Of a DNA stretch of 13,070 nucleotides, positions 764 to 12,687 are shown in pieces. The notes under the pieces are model-generated. The model had not been told where the DNA came from and ran no database searches. It saw nothing but the letters and a program-made list of their open reading frames with translations. The stretch spans positions 1 to 13,070 of the forward strand of contig JAKBQK010000148.1 of assembly GCA_021835265.1 (NCBI GenBank). The letters run 5' to 3'. The position numbers were made by a program, and so were the translations under genes. Source of the DNA: Thermoplasmata archaeon (GTDB taxonomy: Archaea > Thermoplasmatota > Thermoplasmata > Thermoplasmatales > Thermoplasmataceae). Numbering within the stretch: the first letter of the stretch is position 1; each line of letters opens with the position of its first letter.

Positions 764-1279
764 TTAGAACCATCCCTTCGGAATGATAGTGGATTCGTCT
801 ATAGTTTTTCTTACTGAGTCCCAGCGACCAACTATCATTCTCCTTTCACCTTTTGCCCCATATGCAAAAAGATCATCCTTGTCCATCACATGGTATAGCT
901 CATCAAGGGTCCCGGTGCCATTTGGCGATATCAGGAACGATTCCAATGGATTGATCAACTGAGTATATCCCCACAACTGGCCTAGATCTTTAAGTGTAGT
1001 AGTCGGGACTTTCACTTCCATGAGAACCAGCTCTTCTCTATTCCCCCTTTTTAAAGAGGCCACAATATCAACTTTTATTTTGAGCCTTGTAAATAATCCT
1101 CTGTTTATTCCCATTCTTTTTAAGGCGTCTTCAATAAAATGTTTGTGGGAATCCTCACTTACCAGAACAGTCCATTTGTCTTTTCCGTATTTTTCTTCCA
1201 AATAGTTAATGAGCCACCTTCTTATTTCAGGATATAATTCCTCTTCATGGTCAGACAAACCTAATCGTACTCCGTCCAA
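764..1279 (-). CDS. PD-(D/E)XK nuclease, probable restriction subunit
   Basis: A protein of up to 171 residues with a readable PD-(D/E)XK nuclease core. Asp71 lies in KIKVDIVASL, then Glu88 and Lys90 in LVLMEVKVP (D-x16-E-x-K), followed by Gln101 in a helix (LGQLWGYTQLINP). In this superfamily these residues bind Mg2+ and hydrolyse the DNA backbone. It is the last gene of the operon, behind two DNA methyltransferases, which is where a restriction endonuclease would be expected. It is small and has no obvious DNA-recognition domain, so it may need a partner, with the LAGLIDADG-fold protein just upstream the obvious candidate. The start is uncertain: a TTG at 1279 overlaps the upstream gene by 19 bases, while another TTG at 1258 would leave a 2-base gap. 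A methyl-directed or repair nuclease is the alternative. Confidence 0.75.
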   Translation of the reverse strand: MDGVRLGLSDHEEELYPEIRRWLINYLEEKYGKDKWTVLVSEDSHKHFIEDALKRMGINRGLFTRLKIKVDIVASLKRGNREELVLMEVKVPTTTLKDLGQLWGYTQLINPLESFLISPNGTGTLDELYHVMDKDDLFAYGAKGERRMIVGRWDSVRKTIDESTIIPKGWF

Positions 1280-2172
1280 GCGTTTTTAAAATAGCCCAGT
1301 ATCTTCGCAACTTCAGTCCAAGATGAAAAATGCATCCCCCTTATCTGGGCAGGCAGACTGGTATCATTCTCCATAGGATGGATAGGCCTATTTTTCTTTC
1401 TAATAATGTTATTCCAGTAGAATATATGATGCTTATGTTCACCACCTTCAGAAGCTAAGTTTTCCTTGGCCAGTCTTTGCAAGTTCTCATCCTTGTGTTG
1501 AATATTGAAACCAATCTTTAGAAACTCCTCATCATAAATTTTTATTTGATGTTCCTTTTTCCAAAAATATTTCTTTCCTTCGTTATATTTTTTCAATGCA
1601 GGATCTCTGAAATTTGGATGAGCCCAATCTATCTGTTGTACAGGGACGTTCACGCTTGCAAGTAGATTGCAAATGTCGACGACAAGGAACCAATTTTCAG
1701 GCATTTCCAGATAAACTCTATGACCTCCCGGTTCTGTTTTCTTTTTAAAAGCCTTGTCACTGCTTCTTACATGTCCTGTAAAGTCACCAAACCCTCTAAG
1801 GAATTCAATTTTGAACCTTTCTTCCCATTTGAAGATCTCCGAGTGTATTCTAAAATCTTTAAATGAAGAAAAGTTTCCGACATAGTAATTTATAGTATCT
1901 ATTAGAAAGTCTCTGCTATTTTTAGAGAAAGATATGATATGGGAATGAGCTCCAGAGGTTATATTAAGGAGATTGCCAACAACTGGCTGGATCCTCTGTT
2001 GTATCCTAAGGAGACTAGCATCCACGTATAGTCGTGGATCTTTACCGTTTATCCTTAGGCTCTTATGTGGTAATTCCATTATCACTTTTGTTAAATCATG
2101 TGACCTATTTATCTGGCCTTTTGCAAAGATCCCACCCATTAGATAACTTATCTCCGAATTTACCATTGTCAT
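1261..2172 (-). CDS. LAGLIDADG-fold protein with lost catalytic acids, in R-M operon
   Basis: This 303-residue protein shows two degenerate LAGLIDADG helices 114 residues apart: LMGGIFAKG at 11-19 and LRGFGDFTG at 125-133. The second is followed by the usual fold signature, including a lLasvnVPV helix-strand near 170-178 and IKIYDEEFLKIGF near 210-222 with a trailing lysine-rich helix. This matches a two-domain monomeric homing-endonuclease fold. In active enzymes the last Asp of each motif binds the metal; here those positions are Lys18 and Thr132, so cleavage by the classical mechanism is unlikely. The family also gave rise to non-cutting DNA binders such as WhiA. Its ATG overlaps the stop of the methyltransferase by one base (TAATG), and its end overlaps the nuclease gene. 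It sits between modification and restriction genes, not inside an intron or intein, so DNA recognition for the system is the favoured role (inference). Confidence 0.7.
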   Translation of the reverse strand: MTMVNSEISYLMGGIFAKGQINRSHDLTKVIMELPHKSLRINGKDPRLYVDASLLRIQQRIQPVVGNLLNITSGAHSHIISFSKNSRDFLIDTINYYVGNFSSFKDFRIHSEIFKWEERFKIEFLRGFGDFTGHVRSSDKAFKKKTEPGGHRVYLEMPENWFLVVDICNLLASVNVPVQQIDWAHPNFRDPALKKYNEGKKYFWKKEHQIKIYDEEFLKIGFNIQHKDENLQRLAKENLASEGGEHKHHIFYWNNIIRKKNRPIHPMENDTSLPAQIRGMHFSSWTEVAKILGYFKNAWTEYD

Positions 2173-2978
2173 TATCTTCGCTTCCTGAACAACAAAATAT
2201 ATTCATGCACCTTGTTTATGATAAAACTATATGGATAACCCAGTGGCCTCATATTGTTGTACTCCCTCTGTCTGTCCCAGATAATGACATCAATCATCTG
2301 ATAATTCAAATCCATCATAATTTTTGAGACGTCCGAATGGAAAGGATAGAAATTCCCACCTTTTCTTATATCCATTACTACAATGGCACAATGTGCCCCT
2401 GGCTTTAGTATGGTATTGACTTCGTAGAATGCTGAAGCGAGTTTCTTTAAAAAAGCGTCATAATCATTTATATTTCCAAGATCATCTAAGGAATTTGAGT
2501 AATTTACGGATACCTTCCTGTCTGCACTTCTTTTCATGTTAAGGATATCCCAATACGGCGGTGACGTAACGCAGAAGTCTGCTGTTTCTCGCATAATATT
2601 TTTGCTTAAGTTTAAGACATTATCATTGAACATCCTAATTGAAATTTCCGGTTTACCAATTTTTTCCAGTGTCAGTGTGTCTACCCTATTCTTGGAAAAA
2701 TCATAATATTCCTTGGACAGTTCTACCCCTATTCCGTTCCTACCTTCTAGCAGTGAGGCCACCATCGTAGATCCTGAACCCATAAACGGATCTATGACAG
2801 TATCTCCCTTATGTGTGAACATTCTGATTAACCTAGCCGACAATTCGACTGGAAAAGATGCAGGATGATCTCCATTTAGGTCTATCGGGCTCTTCTTTAT
2901 ATCACGCCATATACTGAAGGAATACTGAAGCCAAGTCCTTCCGTCTAGGTCGTTAAGTCTGTCGGCCAGGATTACCAC
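2172..2978 (-). CDS. SPPY-type DNA methyltransferase (N4-cytosine or N6-adenine)
   Basis: This 268-residue enzyme transfers a methyl group from S-adenosylmethionine to an exocyclic amino group in DNA. The N-terminal half has HPASFP (38-43) leading into DPFMGSGST (63-71), the SAM-binding motifs X and I, with Glu86 in GVEL as the likely ribose contact. The catalytic motif IV is TSPPYW (138-143); SPPY is common among N4-cytosine enzymes but also seen in N6-adenine ones. The C-terminal VHEYILLFRK is typical of the N6_N4_Mtase family. The order X-I before IV is not the usual beta-class order, so this is a permuted form. It starts at GTG 2978, overlapping the upstream methyltransferase by 7 bases, with AAGGAG just ahead. 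No separate target-recognition domain is obvious. It probably protects one strand of the site. Confidence 0.88.
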   Translation of the reverse strand: MVILADRLNDLDGRTWLQYSFSIWRDIKKSPIDLNGDHPASFPVELSARLIRMFTHKGDTVIDPFMGSGSTMVASLLEGRNGIGVELSKEYYDFSKNRVDTLTLEKIGKPEISIRMFNDNVLNLSKNIMRETADFCVTSPPYWDILNMKRSADRKVSVNYSNSLDDLGNINDYDAFLKKLASAFYEVNTILKPGAHCAIVVMDIRKGGNFYPFHSDVSKIMMDLNYQMIDVIIWDRQREYNNMRPLGYPYSFIINKVHEYILLFRKRR

Positions 2979-4585
2979 ATGCTCCTTCTGGACAGAACAA
3001 ATGACATAGCATTTTCAACAATTTTAATTAACTGTGGGTCCATTCCAAATAAACTGTATACTAAGGTATCAATTCTCGAAAACAATTCTTTGAGTTCCGA
3101 CTCTTTGCAGTTGTGTATTTTGTCGACTATTTCTAAGATTTCATGCATCTCGTTACTGTGTTCCTTCCATACCACTGGAATCTGACCTAGATAATACCCG
3201 TCCATGTGCATAGTAAGCTTGGACTGAGAAAATATTGAATTAAATAAATAGAAATTAATTAGTTTAGAATTAAGAAGCGCATAAAAAAACTTTAGCTTGG
3301 TGTGATTCGATATCACTACATTAGTTACGGTCTCGGTGGTAATCACTCCAATCTCATCTAAATAAGAGATAATTCCAGATTCTGACGAGTAAATATTCTG
3401 CATAACTATCTTTGGTTTTCTCAATTCCTCTATCTTTGGGTTTTCCGTAGACTTTATATTGAAAGAACAGATTCTTTTGAGGTGACCTTTAGCTATATCC
3501 CTTCCTCTTATACAGCGATTATCAAATTTCCTGTTGGCTTCCGGTGAGTTTTCAGTAATCTCTGTAATGTTTAAAGGTAAACCTCTAAAGACTTTATACT
3601 CAGTGAAATTGGCCAATCTATCTGAATTTTGATTTATGTGCTCCACAGCCTTGAAGATGTCTGGATCTAAAAATACTGGCAACGAGGGCTTATCCAAGAA
3701 ATATTTTTGCGACACAGAAAATGGGACCTGCTTCAAATTAATGGAAGACTTATAGATAGAGATAAATTCTATACTGGAGTTTATAGTTGGCCGGCCTTTT
3801 TTTATAAAGGCAATGATTTGTTCCCCGCGTACCCCTTTGAACTTTATTCCTATTTCCACAATTCTTGTAATTGTGAAATTATGCAGTATATATTTCCGAA
3901 AGTCGTCGTATTTTTTAACATAAAGCAATGACTTCGGTAACACAAAGGCAATTGTTCCACCTTCCTTCAGAAGTTCAATAGCCCTAAGAATGAAGTAAAT
4001 AGGCATATTCTTTGTTTTGTCTGCAATTTTTCTATGAAGACTCCCGACCAGTTCTATTTTCTTCTCTGTAACATTTTTAACGTTGTATGGTGGATTTCCA
4101 ACTATATAATCAAATCCACCATTATTCCTTACATCGTTCAATATGTCAATTTCTGAAGTAAAGGAATTTCCTAGGGACTTGTTGAAAAGAAAATCCCCGA
4201 GTATCACATGAGATTCTGCTATTTTCTCTGATTGACTTCCCATGATGGATTTTAAGGCATTTCTTGTGAAAATTACAGCCCTTTCATCAATATCGATGCC
4301 GTAGATATCTAGCATATACGGTTTTTTTCTAAAAACTGCCATATGGTATAGAGGAAATAGAAACGATCCACACCCACAAGCCGGATCAAGAATCGTGGTG
4401 TCTGGGCCAACTTCAAGATGCTGCAAAATATAATTCACCACATCTTTGTCAGTGTAGAATGCACCTAGATCTTTTTGTTCTATCCCTAGCTTTTCTGGTA
4501 TCTTGTTGATATTGTTATAATAATCTTCGGTTACGGTATTTTGAATAGTCTCCTGTAGCTCATGTTTTATATTCAGCGCACTCAC
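2972..4585 (-). CDS. TaqI-like N6-adenine DNA methyltransferase
   Basis: A 537-residue gamma-class adenine methyltransferase. The motifs appear in order: GAFYT (41-45, motif X), DPACGCGSF (67-75, motif I), YGIDIDE with Asp98 (motif II), GDFL (130-133, motif III) and the catalytic NPPY (164-167, motif IV), which stacks the flipped adenine. The second half, roughly 330-475, with VFRGLP, IRGRDI and a late LLNSKLINFY helix, looks like the C-terminal target-recognition domain of TaqI and type I/IIG-like methylases. It begins with GTG 4585, overlapping the regulator's stop (GTGA), and ends within the start of the second methyltransferase. There is no nuclease domain fused at its N-terminus, unlike type IIG enzymes, so cleavage must come from another gene. 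A type I HsdM is less likely because no HsdR or HsdS gene is present here. Confidence 0.9.
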   Translation of the reverse strand: MSALNIKHELQETIQNTVTEDYYNNINKIPEKLGIEQKDLGAFYTDKDVVNYILQHLEVGPDTTILDPACGCGSFLFPLYHMAVFRKKPYMLDIYGIDIDERAVIFTRNALKSIMGSQSEKIAESHVILGDFLFNKSLGNSFTSEIDILNDVRNNGGFDYIVGNPPYNVKNVTEKKIELVGSLHRKIADKTKNMPIYFILRAIELLKEGGTIAFVLPKSLLYVKKYDDFRKYILHNFTITRIVEIGIKFKGVRGEQIIAFIKKGRPTINSSIEFISIYKSSINLKQVPFSVSQKYFLDKPSLPVFLDPDIFKAVEHINQNSDRLANFTEYKVFRGLPLNITEITENSPEANRKFDNRCIRGRDIAKGHLKRICSFNIKSTENPKIEELRKPKIVMQNIYSSESGIISYLDEIGVITTETVTNVVISNHTKLKFFYALLNSKLINFYLFNSIFSQSKLTMHMDGYYLGQIPVVWKEHSNEMHEILEIVDKIHNCKESELKELFSRIDTLVYSLFGMDPQLIKIVENAMSFVLSRRSMW

Positions 4586-4785
4586 ATCCTTGGAAGGCTG
4601 ACTCGTTTTGTACTGGCATATCTTTCGACCTTTACCTTTCCAGTTTGGGCTAAAATATCCACATATTTTCCGGCCGTGTTAGGAGAAACTGAAGCCTTGA
4701 GTGAAATCTGTTTAATGTACAGAGGACCGTCTTCGAGCGACTTCAAAATTTTATCAATTATTTCAGAATTTGCCGTTCCGATCAT
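4582..4785 (-). CDS. Small winged-helix regulator, probable R-M control protein
   Basis: From ATG 4785 this encodes 67 residues made of a single helix-turn-helix: an ANSEIIDKILKSLEDG helix, then LYIKQISLKASVSPNTAGKY as the recognition unit, then a wing (TGKVKVERYAST) and KRVSLPRM. This fits small archaeal ArsR/MarR-like transcription factors. The frame extends upstream to a TTG at 4848, but that extension runs over the TATA-like box and an inverted repeat, so the ATG start and a leaderless transcript are preferred. It is the first gene of the operon and its stop overlaps the next start by 4 bases. Restriction-modification operons often begin with a control protein, normally of the Xre type; a winged-helix regulator in that position would do the same timing job (inference). 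Confidence 0.72.
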   Translation of the reverse strand: MIGTANSEIIDKILKSLEDGPLYIKQISLKASVSPNTAGKYVDILAQTGKVKVERYASTKRVSLPRM

Positions 4786-4802
4786 AATGGTGACGTTCTG
4801 CA

Positions 4803-4840
4803 AATACTTAAACTTAATTGCGTGCAATAATGAATATTGC
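4803..4840 (-). promoter_or_regulatory. Promoter and operator-like repeats of the R-M operon
   Basis: On the minus strand TTTAAGTATT (4803-4812) lies about 23 bases before the ATG at 4785, a good position for a TATA box of a leaderless archaeal message. Directly upstream is a perfect inverted repeat, ATTGC-GT-GCAAT (4817-4828), and a third half-site, ATTGC at 4836-4840, which forms a second inverted repeat with 4824-4829 (GCAATA-n5-TATTGC). Three half-sites next to the TATA box are what an operator for the winged-helix protein could look like. Confidence 0.45.
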
Positions 4841-4918
4841 TTACACAAATGTATAAGTTAGTTAAATTAGAATATTAAAGCACGTAATAATTACATACTA
4901 TGCTTTTATCATAACTAC

Positions 4919-5841: not shown

Positions 5842-6076
5842 GTGTAATGATTTGTGGATTGACCTTAGACTTTTCCGATAAAAGTGGCACCTCAGTCTGG
5901 TGTTCCACACTTCTATGTGGATGCAACGTTATCAACTGAAAGATCCTTCTATCATGATTACATTATATTAATTCAATCGTGTTTAAAATATGATAGTGTA
6001 TTAGATCAGCTATAAAATTGAAAAGGTCCTGTAAGATACTGGTCTCTCAGATCCAAAGGTTTTTTGGAGCATTCAT

Positions 6077-6088
6077 TATTATTAATAT
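6077..6088 (+). promoter_or_regulatory. TATA-like box for the GNAT pseudogene
   Basis: ATTATTAATATC is centred about 25 bases before ATG 6107 with no evident Shine-Dalgarno sequence, matching a leaderless archaeal promoter. Confidence 0.4.
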
Positions 6089-6106
6089 CATTCGAATTGG
6101 GAAGTA

Positions 6107-6607
6107 ATGGCAGATAAATCCCCAGTTGAATTATTACCTATTAGCGAAGATGACTTCCGTAGTTACTTAAAATCACAGATACTTGAATATGCAAAAGAAA
6201 AAGTGAAGTCAGGTAACTGGGCAGAGAGCGAAGCATTTGATCTGTCCACGAAGCCCTTCATGAATCTTTTACCTGAAGGAAGGGGAACTTCCGGTCACTC
6301 GATAATGTCAACAGTAGATTCCATAAATAAAGATAAAGTGGGTGTCTTATGGGTCGAATGGAATAACAAAGAACACAACGGATCATATATCTGGGACATA
6401 ATAATACACGATAAATTCAGAAGAAAAGGTTATGGATCTGTCGCATTAAAACAGCTTGAGAAAATTGCAGCGTAAAAAGGATCCTCTGGCATAAGTCTTC
6501 ATGTGTTTGGGCACAATAAGGCTGCAATATCAATGTATGAATCTCTTGGTTACTACGCGACAAACATCATAATGAAAAAGGATTTAGGAAACCTGATTAA
6601 ACAATAA
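6107..6607 (+). pseudogene. GNAT N-acetyltransferase interrupted by one in-frame stop
   Basis: The frame starting at ATG 6107 encodes 122 residues and then meets TAA at 6473-6475. The same frame continues without any shift for another 43 codons (KGSSGISLHVFGHNKAA, then MYESLGYYATNIIMKKDL) to TAA 6605-6607. The joined product is a standard GNAT acetyltransferase of about 165 residues: a family-typical N-terminal helical segment, the acetyl-CoA pyrophosphate loop RRKGYGS (105-111), then the LHVFGHN strand and the LYExLGY-like motif (MYESLGY) after the stop. The truncated product lacks the last strands of the fold and is unlikely to be active. Changing TAA to GAA or AAA would restore it, so the lesion is a single base and probably recent. 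Readthrough or a sequencing error are the alternatives. Confidence 0.85.
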
Positions 6608-6649
6608 AATTATGATCCCACATCATCATAATGAGGATTCTCATTAACT

Positions 6650-6841
6650 CTAATTAAAACGAAGACTGTTCTCAGCCTTGAGTTGATGTGCATTTTCGTG
6701 AATGAGCTTCTGCATTTTACCGTCATCATTTAGCTCAAAATCTTGTTTTGGTTAATCTTACAGATTAAGCAGTCTTCATTCCCAATCTTGAAGATGGCTC
6801 AGAATTTTCTTAGGTATCACAATCTTAGACACGGCAAACAC
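6650..6841 (-). pseudogene. Frameshifted AbrB/SpoVT-like remnant
   Basis: On the minus strand, from GTG 6841, one frame reads VFAVSKIVIPKKILSHL and stops. The frame one base over continues KIGNEDCLICKINQNKIL and stops at 6730-6732. Joined, these give the signature of a swapped-hairpin AbrB domain (IVIPKKI-x3-L-x-KIG-x-ED-x-L-I then a final strand). The first frame then resumes with DFELNDDGKMQKLIHENAH and ends at TAG 6650-6652, possibly the old C-terminal tail. AbrB-type proteins are DNA-binding regulators, often antitoxins. At least one frameshift breaks the domain, so no full protein can be made. No toxin gene is visible nearby. The match is by eye only. Confidence 0.4.
6813..6837. repeat. 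25-bp direct repeat, copy A (partner 12956-12980)
   Basis: GGTATCACAATCTTAGACACGG plus CAA matches 12956-12980 in 23 of 25 positions, same orientation, 6143 bases apart. On the minus strand both copies read in the same frame as AVS(K/R)IVIP. Confidence 0.7.
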
Positions 6842-6885
6842 TTATATAATTGGACTAGGATATTATTCTGAGCTTATAGGGCTAA

Positions 6886-6896
6886 TACTTTATACT
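6886..6896 (+). promoter_or_regulatory. TATA-like box before the small Cys-rich ORF
   Basis: TACTTTATACT is centred about 22 bases before ATG 6913, close to the spacing seen at the other leaderless starts in this window. Confidence 0.25.
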
Positions 6897-6912
6897 CTAT
6901 CTTTGCTCTAGA

Positions 6913-7050
6913 ATGACACTACACTTCTCGGAAAATATCGTATTTGACTGGATCTGGAAAAAGAAAGTTACTCATATTGTGCATTGTGATTACTGCTACA
7001 TTGCCACACATACGAAGACTTGTAAGGGGAGACAATGTTTATCTTTATAA
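6913..7050 (+). CDS. Possible 45-residue Cys-rich (zinc-binding) small protein
   Basis: A short frame from ATG 6913 to TAA 7048-7050. The N-terminal half (MTLHFSENIVFDWIWKKK) is followed by a cysteine/histidine cluster: Cys25 and Cys28 (HCDYC), then Cys37 and Cys42, with His21, His24 and His33 nearby. A C-x2-C-x8-C-x4-C pattern could hold one zinc ion. A TATA-like box lies in a plausible place upstream. No family is recognised. The interval around it is full of decayed sequence, so it may be a real microprotein, a fragment of a broken gene, or chance. Confidence 0.35.
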   Translation: MTLHFSENIVFDWIWKKKVTHIVHCDYCYIATHTKTCKGRQCLSL

Positions 7051-7425
7051 AGTAACCAGTTAGAGGGATAATTAGACTGGCAAGGTAAGGCAGAAATCGG
7101 AGTGCAAGGGAAAGGAGGTCATAAAGGACAATATAACAACTGTGCGTAAACCCAGGAACAGGATCATTTCCCGTAATGCGCTTGATCCATCTCCATACAT
7201 AATGTACAGGTTCGCATAGGATTTCGGCATGCAGGATTCATCCATCTCCGCCATGAATGGTTTAACTAATATAAGGGAGGCCGGCAGAAGTTGTGATCTC
7301 ACCGATTTCATGGATTTAGAGAATCCCAGCTTCTTATAAGTGTGGGCACTAAGCTGTACTGGTTAGGTTTTGTTGTGCAGTTACTTTGTCGAATAGATTG
7401 GATGGTTTTACTGTACAGATTTATT
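7051..7425. other. Non-coding or decayed interval before the surface-protein gene end
   Basis: No intact gene is visible here. On the plus strand one frame is open from 7076 to TAA 7337-7339, broken only by TAG 7217-7219, and its residues look protein-like (IKDNITTVRKPRNRI, then SRNALDPSPYIMYRFA). The basic stretch is vaguely like the end of a DDE transposase, but this is not secure. The opposite strand also has an open frame of 79 codons over the same bases, which looks like its shadow. From about 7340 to 7425 I see nothing recognisable. Confidence 0.3.
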
Positions 7426-10400
7426 TTATTTTTTCCTGTTTACCAATACTATTGCAGCGCCAATGACCATTATTGCAATAACGACACCTATTATGGCATA
7501 CAGCTCAGTGTTTGAAGGAACAGAGGGACTAGATATTGGCACTAAACTGACTATGAGATTTTTTGCATTGCCAGAATTCAATGAGAAATTGATGTAGTAT
7601 GATATGTAACCAGAACTGGATATAATTACATGATAGGTTCCATTCGGAACTGTTATGTTGAATGATCCCGATGAAGTCAGAGAAACAGATTTCCCGTTTA
7701 CGTCCAGATTAGCGTTTGCCGGGAAAATTGAGCCTGTGATGTATGCCCAGTGGTAATAATCCACATTTTCAGTAACATTCTTGCCGCTTATAACAACAGT
7801 GAAGTGCGTTGTTGTAGTGTAATAGCTGGTCAGGTTAGTTACAGTAAATGAATATGTACCGTTAGCTAGACTGAATAAAAGGTTGGCTTGCGAGGATTCG
7901 TATCCCGATAGACCGGAACCGTTCACGTACCAATTGACCCCTAAAGGCAATCCTGTTTCCATGAAAGTAATAACATACGTTACCTTTGAGAACACAATAG
8001 CTTCTGATAACTGGTTCCCATTTATAATAAATGACCCTGCGGATGGTGATGGCGAATAGGTCTTATTGGAAGTTGATATTGTGTATGAGTATGAACCATT
8101 CGTCAGAGAAAATGTATAGGATGAACTAGTGATCGGACCTGAATCGATTCCGTTTGTGAGATCAACATACCAAACCCCTCCTGAGGATAAACCAGATTCC
8201 GTGAATGTTACAGTGTACTTTACAAGTGAGAATGTAGTTGAAAGCGAAACTGGAGTTCCATCTACTGAAAATGTAGATGAGATTGGTGATGGAGCATATA
8301 TCTTGTTTGCAGAAGCTATTGTGTATGTATAAGTTCCATTGGTCAACGAGAAGGTATACGAAGATCGGGTTATTGGGCCTGAGGATATTCCATTTGATAG
8401 GTTCATATACCATGAAAGACCCGATGGTAACCCTGATTCTGAGATTACGACATTGTATGTTACCTCGATGATATTTGTAACAATACCGAGAGGGGATCCA
8501 TTTACTGTGAGTGAATTCAGGGATGAAGAAGGCGCATATGTCCTGTTTGATGTCGAGATCGAGTATGTATAAGTCCCATTTGTCAAGTCCACTGTATAGG
8601 AAGATTGAGATGCAATTGGGCCTGAAGATGCCATTCCTGATAAATTGACATACCAGAACAAGCCGGATGCCAATCCTGTTTCGCTGAATGTTATCTCATA
8701 TAACTGAAGTTCCATCTTTATTGTGTATGAGAAGGATGAACCATTTACCGTTATGGTGCCGGAAATATTTTTGTAATCATGCGAAGTTGCCTCAAAGGAA
8801 TATGTTCCATTCGGAAGCGAGAAGATGTAAGAGGAGTTTGTGAGCTGGTAAGTAGTCCCTTTGAATGTCAGGTTCCATTGTGTATTCGAAGGCAGACCTG
8901 ATTCCTGTATCGTGACATTGTACATTATCTCAATAAAGTTTACGTTTATTGTAAGCGGGGAAGCATTAACAGTGAACGATCCTGATGTCAGATTAGGAGC
9001 ATAAATCTGGTTTGCAGAAGCTATTGTGTATGAATATGATCCATTTGTCAATGTAAATGAAAATGTCGAAGATGTGATTGCATTTGAATTGTATGAAGTA
9101 CCGTCGCTCTCTGTAACATTTACATACCAAGGCGCTCCGGAAGGAAGCCCCGTTTCTTTGAACGTTACCGTATAGGTCAATGAGTTACTGGGACTCTGAT
9201 TTGTAAAATTCACGTAAGTAGTATTAAAAGAAGAGATTTTGATTATTTGAGAGTTGATTTCCACTCCACTTATATTGAAAGTTTGCAATTCATATGTTCC
9301 TGGCTGAGCAAAATCCATAAATCGATCAGAATGAAGTGATAATTGTGTCCCATTCAATAATACGCTTGATACATTTGCCCCTACTGCACCTATAAGAGTA
9401 CCAGGGAGCATAGAAAATGAGAAATTATAGATAGCCTGAATTCCGCCCCCATAAGTAGATAAGTATAAAGTATCATTAATAAAATCAAATCCTGTTATTT
9501 CTGTTGAAGGCAGATTATATGAAATAGAATGCCAGGCAAGTCCCATATCAGTGGACAAAAACGCACCATGATTTGTTATGGCTAGCAAAGGATAGGGAGA
9601 TATGTTTAGGAACCCAATCTGAAGAGATGCACCAAAACCTTGACTAAAATAAGGAGAACCAACCCAACCGCTTAAATTAGTATTTACTTGCTGGAAGGTC
9701 TCACCATAATCAGAGCTTTCAAACATTTCAGGGTTATTTCTCTGCCCGGTTACCACTATTACTTTACTGTAATTGCCAGGTTCAATCGCAATTGAAACAA
9801 CTGGGGAATTTAATCCAGAAGCTTCAAGCCATCGTTGGCCATCAAAAACATACATGCCAGAATAGTTGGAGGCATAAATATACCCATTAGGATTTACTGC
9901 TAGGCTCAAAATGTCGCTTGGCGATCCATTCCATAAATTCCAAACCTTCCCTTGTTCTGTACCATTATAAATTCCATTTGGGCTTCCAAAATATATGTTT
10001 CCCTGAGATCCCGGGATCTGCGCAAATATCTCATTTGACTCACCCTGATGGTTAGTGAAACTCAGGTCCTTTGAGAACAGTAGACCAGCATCAGAAGAAA
10101 CGGCTAAATAACCATTTCCCGAGCTATAAACATATATCATTGAGGAGTTATATGGATTAATGTAAGAAACAGTTCCTTCTGCAGGCCACAATGGTCCGGA
10201 TAAAAGGCCATAATTCCAAGAAATTCCCCCGTTATGTGACTCTAAAGACCCATAATCTTGCATTGAAACAAAAAGTTCCTCTCCGTTTTGACTAACACTT
10301 ACACCGTAAGTCAGGAAATTTTCAAGGTTTCCATTTATTGAATTCCAGGAAGAGCCAAAGTTAGTTGTTTCGTATATTCCCTGATCTGCTATGTCGAAAG

Positions 10401-12687
10401 CAAGGTTGGGTTTTAGAGGATCAAACTCAAAATTATGCAGGTCCCAAATATTAAAGATGACATAGAATGTTTTTCCTGAGTTGTTAGAATACCACAGGGT
10501 TGGGCTGGTTCCAGCCCAAATAATACTACTGTTAAGGGGATCAAACATAATTTTCCTTACCTGTGGAAGCGCAGTAAAATGTGAATAATTATATCCATTG
10601 TTATATGATACAATCGTTCCCTCGCCGTTCCCGGCAGCTAAATTAACAAAAACTTCATTTGGATTGAAAGGAGATGCACTTATTGACATGGGTACATCTC
10701 CTTGAAAAGCTGGAAATGTGTTGGAGAGGTTCCAGGAATTACCGTAATTATGTGAAAAGTATAGAGAGTCGTTAAAAAGCAGGGCATAAACATAATTCTC
10801 TGAAGCGGTAACATAAGCAACCTGATAGGTAAAATTTATCAAATCTTTGAAAGAACCACCAAAATTGTTTGTTGAGATAACTCCCCCTATGTTTCCCGGT
10901 ATGCCGTTTCCATAACCTGCATAAATTGTAGAATTTACCGATACAAAATTGGAAATATTTGTATAATTAGCTACCTTATACCAGTAATTGCCCCCATCCA
11001 CAGTTTTATAAATTCCAGACTCAAATAGGCCGGCTAAGAGCTCAGCCGGATTGGACTGATTCATAAACAAGGCATCAACCATTGTTCCTGGAAGACCAAA
11101 GTCAGCTCTTGTCCACGTAACTCCTCCGTTAATTGTCTTATAAATGCCGTCATCACCATATGGACCATAACCCATCACGACTCCTGGTCCGGTTGCTGCG
11201 TATATTATATCTGGATTGGAATAGTCAAAAGCGATCTTTCCAAAGTGTCCAGCCTCTTTTATAACCGACCCATTTTCAAGTGTTACCATCGGCCTGTTTG
11301 GCCCCACTTGAGAATACGGATAATTCTTGACGATTCCCGATTCGGTATTGTTCAAAGCAATGTCTATAGAAAGGTTTGATGTCGAAAGTGTATAAGATTT
11401 GAAGGAGTAGTCATAGCTTGGATTGTAAGCAAGTATATTGTAGACCTGTCTAGGAACTCCGTCAAGTTCTAAATATCCATTTGTGGCATTATATGTTTGC
11501 CCATTGACCATCAGCTGAGAGTTAGTTGGACTGACTTTTATTGTTATATTCCCTGTTATTGTCCTGTTTGTCGCCATGTATAAAACTTGTGGCAATCCTG
11601 GTGTCTGTCCAACAAATACAAATGTATTTCGTAAAAATGCAGAATCAGTTATTGTTCCCCAAAGATTATAAATTTGTTCCACGTTGGACCCATTCCCCTG
11701 ATATATTTCAGTGAACCCGTTGTTAACATCGCCAAACTCGTAGTAATTACCAAAGGACTCAACAAAATATATTTGACCACTACTTGGAGTGTAAAGCGTT
11801 TTAACCGCTAAATTGATTGGATTCAAGGAACGAATGCTGTTGTCTGTTTGGAAAATGAAATCAGTACCATTCCATGCAACTTCATGACTATTCAATCCAC
11901 TGAGCCCTCCAAGGGGAAAAAGTGTGCTAATGTCCAGGACAGTATTATTGGTCAGGTAATATATGTAGGACTGACTATTTGAAATCACCAGAAAAACTCC
12001 ATTCCCATACCCAGTTGCGAAGGATGAACTTGACAAATCTGTAAATTTAGAGGAGATGTTTTGAAATGTCGTACTGGTCATTAGAGCTATTTCTGGGATC
12101 ACATTTTTCGTTGCGCTTTCCTCAATCAGAAGAGAATAATTATCCCCGTAACATAGACTGACTATCTCAGTTCCATTACCAGAAGCTGTCCAGTCAGATG
12201 GCAACAAGGTAGTTTCTTGTTCAAGTTTGTTGTTCGCAGGAAAAAAAGAGTATAGTTGAACTCCGCCTTGTGGCAAATTGTTAGTGCTGCTCATTTGAAA
12301 ACCATTGGGAATTGCAGATATGAACGGTGGAGTACCTTGTGGAAAATTACCAAGCGGTGATATAGAACCGTTGATTCCAACTTCCGTATACCCGGCAGAA
12401 TCCCCTAATAGAAATGTACTGGATTGGGCTGCAACAGCAGAGATCCAGCCAACCGGTTCACCTTGAATTTCTTTTGAGAAATTGTAAAGATTATAAACTG
12501 AAGGAAAAATTACGCTGTTGGAGCTATAGGAATAGCCGTCTGGGTTGGAAAATTCATTGCTTACTACCGCTGCATTGCCGTTTAAATTGATATAGGAAAA
12601 ACTCTCAAGCAGTATGATGATCACTATGAGAGATACGACGAAAATCTTAAGTCTATTCAATTTTCTTAGGAATGGCTTAAAAACCAT
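7426..12687 (-). CDS. Giant membrane-anchored surface protein: beta-propeller, six Ig-like repeats, PEGA-like domain
   Basis: This 1753-residue protein has a basic N-terminus (to about residue 14) and a hydrophobic segment (15-28), a signal peptide or anchor. Residues 40-370 are beta-rich; 379-446 resemble a PEGA-like domain. From about 481 to 1088 there are at least ten Asp-box motifs (S/T-x-D/N-x-G-x-x-W/F), such as INGGVTW (519-525), TVDGGNYW, SHNYGNSW, SNNSGKTF, TTNFGSSW, SHNGGISW, SSDYGETF and STDMGLAW (1045-1052), typical of BNR/sialidase-like or Vps10-like propellers. Residues 1172-1644 hold six Ig-like 'ETGLPSG' repeats, and 1647-1716 a PEGA-like domain. A single membrane helix (about 1729-1749) ends in NRKK, so the bulk faces outside. 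N-x-S/T sites are very frequent, suggesting heavy N-glycosylation. Adhesion, carbohydrate binding or a wall-less cell coat are possible roles. No sialidase catalytic residues were identified. Confidence 0.9.
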   Translation of the reverse strand: MVFKPFLRKLNRLKIFVVSLIVIIILLESFSYINLNGNAAVVSNEFSNPDGYSYSSNSVIFPSVYNLYNFSKEIQGEPVGWISAVAAQSSTFLLGDSAGYTEVGINGSISPLGNFPQGTPPFISAIPNGFQMSSTNNLPQGGVQLYSFFPANNKLEQETTLLPSDWTASGNGTEIVSLCYGDNYSLLIEESATKNVIPEIALMTSTTFQNISSKFTDLSSSSFATGYGNGVFLVISNSQSYIYYLTNNTVLDISTLFPLGGLSGLNSHEVAWNGTDFIFQTDNSIRSLNPINLAVKTLYTPSSGQIYFVESFGNYYEFGDVNNGFTEIYQGNGSNVEQIYNLWGTITDSAFLRNTFVFVGQTPGLPQVLYMATNRTITGNITIKVSPTNSQLMVNGQTYNATNGYLELDGVPRQVYNILAYNPSYDYSFKSYTLSTSNLSIDIALNNTESGIVKNYPYSQVGPNRPMVTLENGSVIKEAGHFGKIAFDYSNPDIIYAATGPGVVMGYGPYGDDGIYKTINGGVTWTRADFGLPGTMVDALFMNQSNPAELLAGLFESGIYKTVDGGNYWYKVANYTNISNFVSVNSTIYAGYGNGIPGNIGGVISTNNFGGSFKDLINFTYQVAYVTASENYVYALLFNDSLYFSHNYGNSWNLSNTFPAFQGDVPMSISASPFNPNEVFVNLAAGNGEGTIVSYNNGYNYSHFTALPQVRKIMFDPLNSSIIWAGTSPTLWYSNNSGKTFYVIFNIWDLHNFEFDPLKPNLAFDIADQGIYETTNFGSSWNSINGNLENFLTYGVSVSQNGEELFVSMQDYGSLESHNGGISWNYGLLSGPLWPAEGTVSYINPYNSSMIYVYSSGNGYLAVSSDAGLLFSKDLSFTNHQGESNEIFAQIPGSQGNIYFGSPNGIYNGTEQGKVWNLWNGSPSDILSLAVNPNGYIYASNYSGMYVFDGQRWLEASGLNSPVVSIAIEPGNYSKVIVVTGQRNNPEMFESSDYGETFQQVNTNLSGWVGSPYFSQGFGASLQIGFLNISPYPLLAITNHGAFLSTDMGLAWHSISYNLPSTEITGFDFINDTLYLSTYGGGIQAIYNFSFSMLPGTLIGAVGANVSSVLLNGTQLSLHSDRFMDFAQPGTYELQTFNISGVEINSQIIKISSFNTTYVNFTNQSPSNSLTYTVTFKETGLPSGAPWYVNVTESDGTSYNSNAITSSTFSFTLTNGSYSYTIASANQIYAPNLTSGSFTVNASPLTINVNFIEIMYNVTIQESGLPSNTQWNLTFKGTTYQLTNSSYIFSLPNGTYSFEATSHDYKNISGTITVNGSSFSYTIKMELQLYEITFSETGLASGLFWYVNLSGMASSGPIASQSSYTVDLTNGTYTYSISTSNRTYAPSSSLNSLTVNGSPLGIVTNIIEVTYNVVISESGLPSGLSWYMNLSNGISSGPITRSSYTFSLTNGTYTYTIASANKIYAPSPISSTFSVDGTPVSLSTTFSLVKYTVTFTESGLSSGGVWYVDLTNGIDSGPITSSSYTFSLTNGSYSYTISTSNKTYSPSPSAGSFIINGNQLSEAIVFSKVTYVITFMETGLPLGVNWYVNGSGLSGYESSQANLLFSLANGTYSFTVTNLTSYYTTTTHFTVVISGKNVTENVDYYHWAYITGSIFPANANLDVNGKSVSLTSSGSFNITVPNGTYHVIISSSGYISYYINFSLNSGNAKNLIVSLVPISSPSVPSNTELYAIIGVVIAIMVIGAAIVLVNRKK
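7756..9174 (-). repeat. Six tandem Ig-like protein repeats within the surface-protein gene
   Basis: Units of about 72-82 codons start at 9174, 8922, 8700, 8457, 8217 and 7977, reading down the minus strand. Each opens with a strand like YTVTFxETGLPSG, then WYVNL, then a TxSSYTFSLTNGxYxYTI block and a YAPSP...FxVNGxPL block. Units 3-5 are the most alike, and unit 2 is the most divergent and the shortest (72 residues). The repeats recur in secreted proteins of Thermoplasmatales and in thermopsin-associated proteins. Confidence 0.88.

Follow-up and report, generated by a model that had tools for sequence, protein, structure and literature searches.

The 13,070-nucleotide contig JAKBQK010000148.1 of a Thermoplasmata archaeon (assembly GCA_021835265.1; this whole stretch is called the window below) carries on its minus strand an operon that probably encodes a Type II restriction-modification system with a split restriction enzyme, a reading to which we assign a probability of nearly four in five. 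A LAGLIDADG-fold protein lacking the catalytic acids would recognise the site, a separate PD-(D/E)XK nuclease would cut it, and two methyltransferases would protect its strands. The LAGLIDADG protein probably finds the target and its partner cuts, because the relatives examined pair the acid-less fold with an intact small nuclease and with methylases. Gene order in the window was winged-helix-like protein, N6-adenine methyltransferase, PF01555 methyltransferase, LAGLIDADG protein and 171-amino-acid (aa) nuclease, with adjoining methyltransferase and nuclease genes as in Type II restriction-modification systems; with the listed starts, neighbouring genes shared 1 to 19 bases. The features of the two proposed restriction subunits were as follows.

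1261 to 2172, minus strand: LAGLIDADG-fold protein, 303 aa, proposed site-recognition subunit, with Lys18 and Thr132 replacing the acids
2116 to 2142, minus strand: first LAGLIDADG motif (residues 11-19, LMGGIFAKG), from sequence, alignment and predicted structure
1774 to 1800, minus strand: second LAGLIDADG motif (residues 125-133, LRGFGDFTG), from sequence, alignment and predicted structure
1702 to 1719, minus strand: beta strand 152-157, in the sheet of the second repeat, with the highest conservation of any element (0.89); that it faces DNA is only an analogy with the fold
1534 to 1551, minus strand: beta strand 208-213, also in the second repeat's sheet (conservation 0.88), likewise DNA-facing only by analogy
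764 to 1279, minus strand: PD-(D/E)XK-like nuclease proposed to do the cutting, starting at TTG 1279 (171 aa) or TTG 1258
977 to 1069, minus strand: presumed active-site stretch with D71, E88, K90 and Q101 (numbered from TTG 1279), invariant in 61 of 61 rows

The original prediction, made from the DNA letters, of a 303-aa LAGLIDADG-type open reading frame (ORF) with two motifs and with Lys18 and Thr132 in place of the acids was confirmed by the ORF and by alignment. The metal-binding acid of homing endonucleases is taken here to be the eighth motif position (as in I-CreI), which is occupied by these two residues. In an alignment of the window protein with 120 homologues (the best 120 of 723 retrieved from 5.8 billion proteins), column 18 held N in 99 sequences, K in 21 and R in 1, and column 132 held T in 120 and A in 1; among the copies from the 86 loci described below, the pair was N/T in 82 and K/T in 4. 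Neither motif had a catalytic acid at its eighth position in any of the 121 aligned sequences or in any of the 86 loci. Structure prediction, named beforehand as a check, returned a duplicated alpha-beta-beta-alpha-beta-beta-alpha fold with two LAGLIDADG helices, which is the fold of the superfamily, and modelled region 241-296 as short helices. The folds of both subunits rest on predicted structures because PDB sequence searches with the LAGLIDADG protein and with both family profiles gave no LAGLIDADG or nuclease match. The window LAGLIDADG protein had no Pfam, NCBIfam or PADLOC family at E≤1, PHROGs gave no match to the window pair at E≤0.01, and PADLOC reported nothing for this pair or for that of locus L053. 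Weak Pfam matches over family members (Hom_end in 20/121, LAGLIDADG_3 in 5/121 and the unrelated DUF2525 in 35/121) are hints only.

The partner nuclease gene (764 to 1279) had not been part of the original prediction, and its presence supports and extends that interpretation. A PD-(D/E)XK core with D and ExK residues was found in the nuclease by their invariance, a structural model and a VIA match; Foldseek by itself was marginal (E 1.9e-3), and a weak Pfam match to the YhcG_C nuclease in 22/61 family members is a hint only. For the window nuclease, Pfam gave nothing at E≤1, PADLOC gave nothing, and NCBIfam gave one chance-level match (NF053736, E 0.071; 12.4 bits, with the cut-off at 130). 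Overlap of the LAGLIDADG gene with both neighbours, as first described, holds with the listed starts (19 nt downstream), whereas the alternative TTG of the nuclease gene leaves a 2-nt gap on the downstream side. Nuclease ORFs as called spanned 146-253 aa over the 86 loci, some of them being cut or having overlong starts. No natural full fusion of the LAGLIDADG protein with the nuclease was present in the best 120 of 1502 matches to a joined query. In P0335 (321 aa, one contig), approximately residues 1-166 of the LAGLIDADG protein were joined in frame to the nuclease, perhaps by a deletion or an assembly fault.

Gene linkage was computed over 86 loci. A scan of 84,980 species, each represented by one genome, confirmed 141 relatives, of which the best 80 were used together with two Lactiplantibacillus plantarum plasmids, two phages, one viral contig and the window (locus L095 duplicates L001). 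The next gene downstream of the LAGLIDADG gene belonged to the nuclease family in 86/86 loci, and methyltransferases lay upstream in 85/86, sometimes with another gene between; L071 starts at a contig edge, and a C5 methyltransferase gene is all that L028 and L051 show on 3-kb contigs. These neighbours bear out the earlier placement of the gene outside any intron or intein. The examined homologues were members of restriction-modification operons and lacked the acids, rather than being free-standing active homing endonucleases with intact acids, the finding that had been set in advance as refuting the interpretation. Three more viral loci carried the identical layout. Among 391 genomes of one bacterial class, the LAGLIDADG and nuclease families occurred in the same 3 genomes, one being the known centre; among 300 from the class to which L003 belongs, the LAGLIDADG family occurred in 2, both already known (L003 and L004), and the nuclease family in these two plus one distant case. 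The best 80 of 141 loci fell into Thermoplasmatota (3) and nine named bacterial phyla (Bacillota, 58), with 6 lacking a phylum. Most of the 80 were metagenome bins, and binning error is possible because the LAGLIDADG proteins of L057 and L059 are identical although their bins belong to different phyla. Nearest to the window in the LAGLIDADG tree were Thermoplasmata (top identity 51%, L002). In L. plantarum (L082, L083), the cassette lies on small plasmids typed as non-mobilizable, beside a YafQ toxin gene, and in two gut phages (L084, L085) it lies near the ends of both records.

The genome of the L003 class with a more distant nuclease match (E 2.4e-6; L091) has a 477-aa protein in front of that nuclease. 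The LAGLIDADG profile covered its positions 1-288 (56 bits, E 1.9e-16 for 1000 sequences), and hhalign gave a probability of 97.6 against the LAGLIDADG family, with crossed controls scoring nothing; its acid positions were G and I. At E≤1e-5, the profile did not report this protein in the 300-genome scan, and it was found only through its nuclease neighbour. No match to it was present in plasmids, phages, viral contigs or 199 other genomes of its class, and the diverged system therefore stands on one example. The L091 island (6656-11103) consists of a C5 methylase, the 477-aa LAGLIDADG-like protein, a 192-aa nuclease and Vsr, flanked by two identical 301-aa transposase-like genes, and resembles a composite transposon carrying a restriction system; the upstream C5 methyltransferase and the transposases were named by eye, Vsr by Pfam.

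The remaining genes of the window operon were the following.

2172 to 2978, minus strand: DNA methyltransferase (PF01555, N6_N4_Mtase) with motif SPPY, probably N4-cytosine
2972 to 4585, minus strand: N6-adenine DNA methyltransferase (PF02384, N6_Mtase/Eco57I) with a TaqI_C specificity domain
4582 to 4848, minus strand: small winged-helix-like protein at the operon head, a possible regulator (Pfam matches below cut-off)

Relatives of the winged-helix-like protein were found in L002 and L003, not in L004. SPPY usually marks N4-cytosine methyltransferases; PDB matches of this enzyme were mixed, with N4-cytosine enzymes (8s9m and PvuII) alongside adenine enzymes. Two different methyltransferases were present in 83/86 loci, to which the comparison of sets and the tree were confined (the contig-edge operons L028, L051 and L071 were omitted). 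The complete sets were N6 with N4/N6 type (28 loci), EcoRI-type with C5 (49; 28 fused into one protein, 21 separate) and C5 with N6 (6), each comprising one adenine enzyme and one C5 or SPPY type; Pfam confirmed EcoRI_methylase, C-5 methylase, N6_Mtase/Eco57I and N6_N4_Mtase on ten representatives. On the tree of 83 LAGLIDADG proteins, the methyltransferase set changed 5 times by fewest changes (minimum possible, 2), and LAGLIDADG pairs up to 79% identical (nuclease 78%) had differing sets. A site that stays constant through these exchanges, with adenine in one strand and cytosine in the other, can be put forward as a hypothesis from the sequences. It would fit the C5 enzymes, which were 63-73% identical between their two sets (49 x 6 loci; identity counts leave out short domains), with conservation that extends in the consensus to the presumed specificity region. 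The N6 enzymes weigh against it: their identity averaged 47% over 33 loci, and was 44% (20-50%) when the two bacterial sets were compared and 29% (17-32%) when archaeal enzymes were set against bacterial ones. We keep site constancy conditional because of these opposing signs. In L060, a NOV_C (PF13020)-like protein (5970-6995) lies between the methyltransferases and the LAGLIDADG gene, as also in L026, L043, L076, L078 and L080, and short forms of it occupy the same position in L018, L032, L035 and others. The EcoRI-type methyltransferase of L060 (3648-4886) has an HTH_3 domain at its N-terminus, possibly for self-regulation.

The original proposal of a homing-endonuclease fold turned into a restriction-system component is supported by the predicted fold and operon membership, from which we infer DNA binding and restriction. 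The LAGLIDADG protein would have kept the pseudo-symmetric DNA-binding saddle, lost catalysis and come to recognise the target, and the small nuclease, probably without specificity of its own, would be brought to the site by contact with this subunit. The recruited nuclease would dimerise and cut both strands, as do the nuclease domains of FokI and PaqCI, dimerisation for double-strand cutting being shown for the latter in the accessible text of PMC10201449. The two methyltransferases would guard the two strands of an asymmetric site, as the presence of two different enzymes in 83/86 loci suggests, one modifying adenine and the other probably cytosine. When conservation was scored on 52 LAGLIDADG sequences of <80% identity, second-repeat strands 133-136, 152-157, 180-182 and 208-213 reached 0.82, 0.89, 0.81 and 0.88 against 0.64 overall, whereas first-repeat strands scored 0.40-0.72; such a pattern would agree with a short site recognised chiefly through one half of the saddle, a hypothesis drawn from residue conservation. 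For the wider proposal we see even odds: a widespread, uncatalogued Type II class with a cleavage-dead meganuclease as specificity subunit and a separate PD-(D/E)XK cutter. The pair would keep a single ancestral target, with the second repeat doing most of the reading, while methyltransferases of unrelated types, all guarding this site, replace one another around the pair.

The LAGLIDADG protein could instead be a WhiA-like controller of the operon, with the small PD-(D/E)XK protein a complete restriction enzyme alone. WhiA/DUF199 is, in the source text available, a transcription factor with its own linked helix-turn-helix (HTH) domain, whereas here the neighbour is a nuclease, which follows in one order at every locus. 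The asymmetric site suggested by the methyltransferases would be unexpected for a small homodimer, a winged-helix-like protein is already encoded in the window operon, the L060 methyltransferase has a fused HTH, and we consider such a controller unlikely. Quite unlikely, too, is a LAGLIDADG protein that still nicks at a rebuilt active site, such as one around Asp130, with the small subunit cutting the other strand as in Type IIT BtsI and BsrDI. Asp130 was invariant (121/121), but it is the sixth position of the second motif, not the eighth, which binds metal in I-CreI, and the eighth positions were N/K/R and T/A throughout, and G and I in the distant 477-aa relative. Among Type IIT enzymes there are, as far as the available part of PMC4081073 goes, heterodimers that contain a small nonspecific subunit and are accompanied by two methyltransferases. 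If a free-standing homing endonuclease had settled in the operon and were now decaying, the lost acids and the fold would be explained. This reading is very improbable given that 37 columns are invariant across the 121 sequences, that the ORFs keep a normal length (290-343 aa) in 86/86 loci and that the neighbours are the same across one archaeal and nine named bacterial phyla.

Type II restriction enzymes have been described as variations on few nuclease folds (PD-(D/E)XK, HNH, GIY-YIG and phospholipase D). The proposed split enzyme shares its recognition fold with the homing endonucleases PI-SceI, I-DmoI and I-Tsp061I, but both catalytic acids are missing and the genes belong to restriction-modification operons rather than being intron, intein or free-standing mobile genes. 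The nearest two-protein precedent is Type IIT (BtsI, BsrDI, BspD6I), in which, according to the available part of PMC4081073, the large subunit itself cuts one strand, whereas the proposed recognition protein here has no acids at the LAGLIDADG positions. Type IIS PaqCI is a single chain, in contrast to two separate proteins here; as a candidate fused relative, it has no LAGLIDADG in the main text of PMC10201449 and was absent among the 50 best structural matches listed for the LAGLIDADG model, which leaves similarity possible. MhoVII of Mycoplasma hominis, with fused methyltransferases, was set aside, as no link to the pair was seen in the accessible part of its source. The 2014 Type II review (PMC4081073) does not contain the word LAGLIDADG. 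In the openly searchable literature (most subscription journals, bioRxiv and REBASE lying outside it), no paper matched LAGLIDADG, PDDEXK, methyltransferase and restriction combined, and, as far as the texts were accessible, none on LAGLIDADG and restriction-modification appears to describe such a system. If true, a meganuclease-built recognition subunit would add a path by which homing enzymes evolve towards immunity and give a natural precedent for coupling an inactive meganuclease with a separate nuclease. Annotators could name a gene pair that, among the records listed, is mostly called "hypothetical protein" or nameless over about ten phyla, and the swapping of methyltransferases around a conserved pair would allow tests of how restriction specificity outlasts the protecting enzymes.

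In the window, promoter and terminator counts were no better than in shuffles, and no tRNA, Rfam match or tandem repeat was found. A predicted surface protein of 1753 aa (7426-12687, minus strand) had, by eye, a hydrophobic stretch at its C-terminus and several repeated segments resembling ETGLPSG. A GNAT-like ORF of 122 aa (6107-6475, plus strand) covered just positions 38-88 of the 116 in Pfam Acetyltransf_1, ends there and is perhaps broken.
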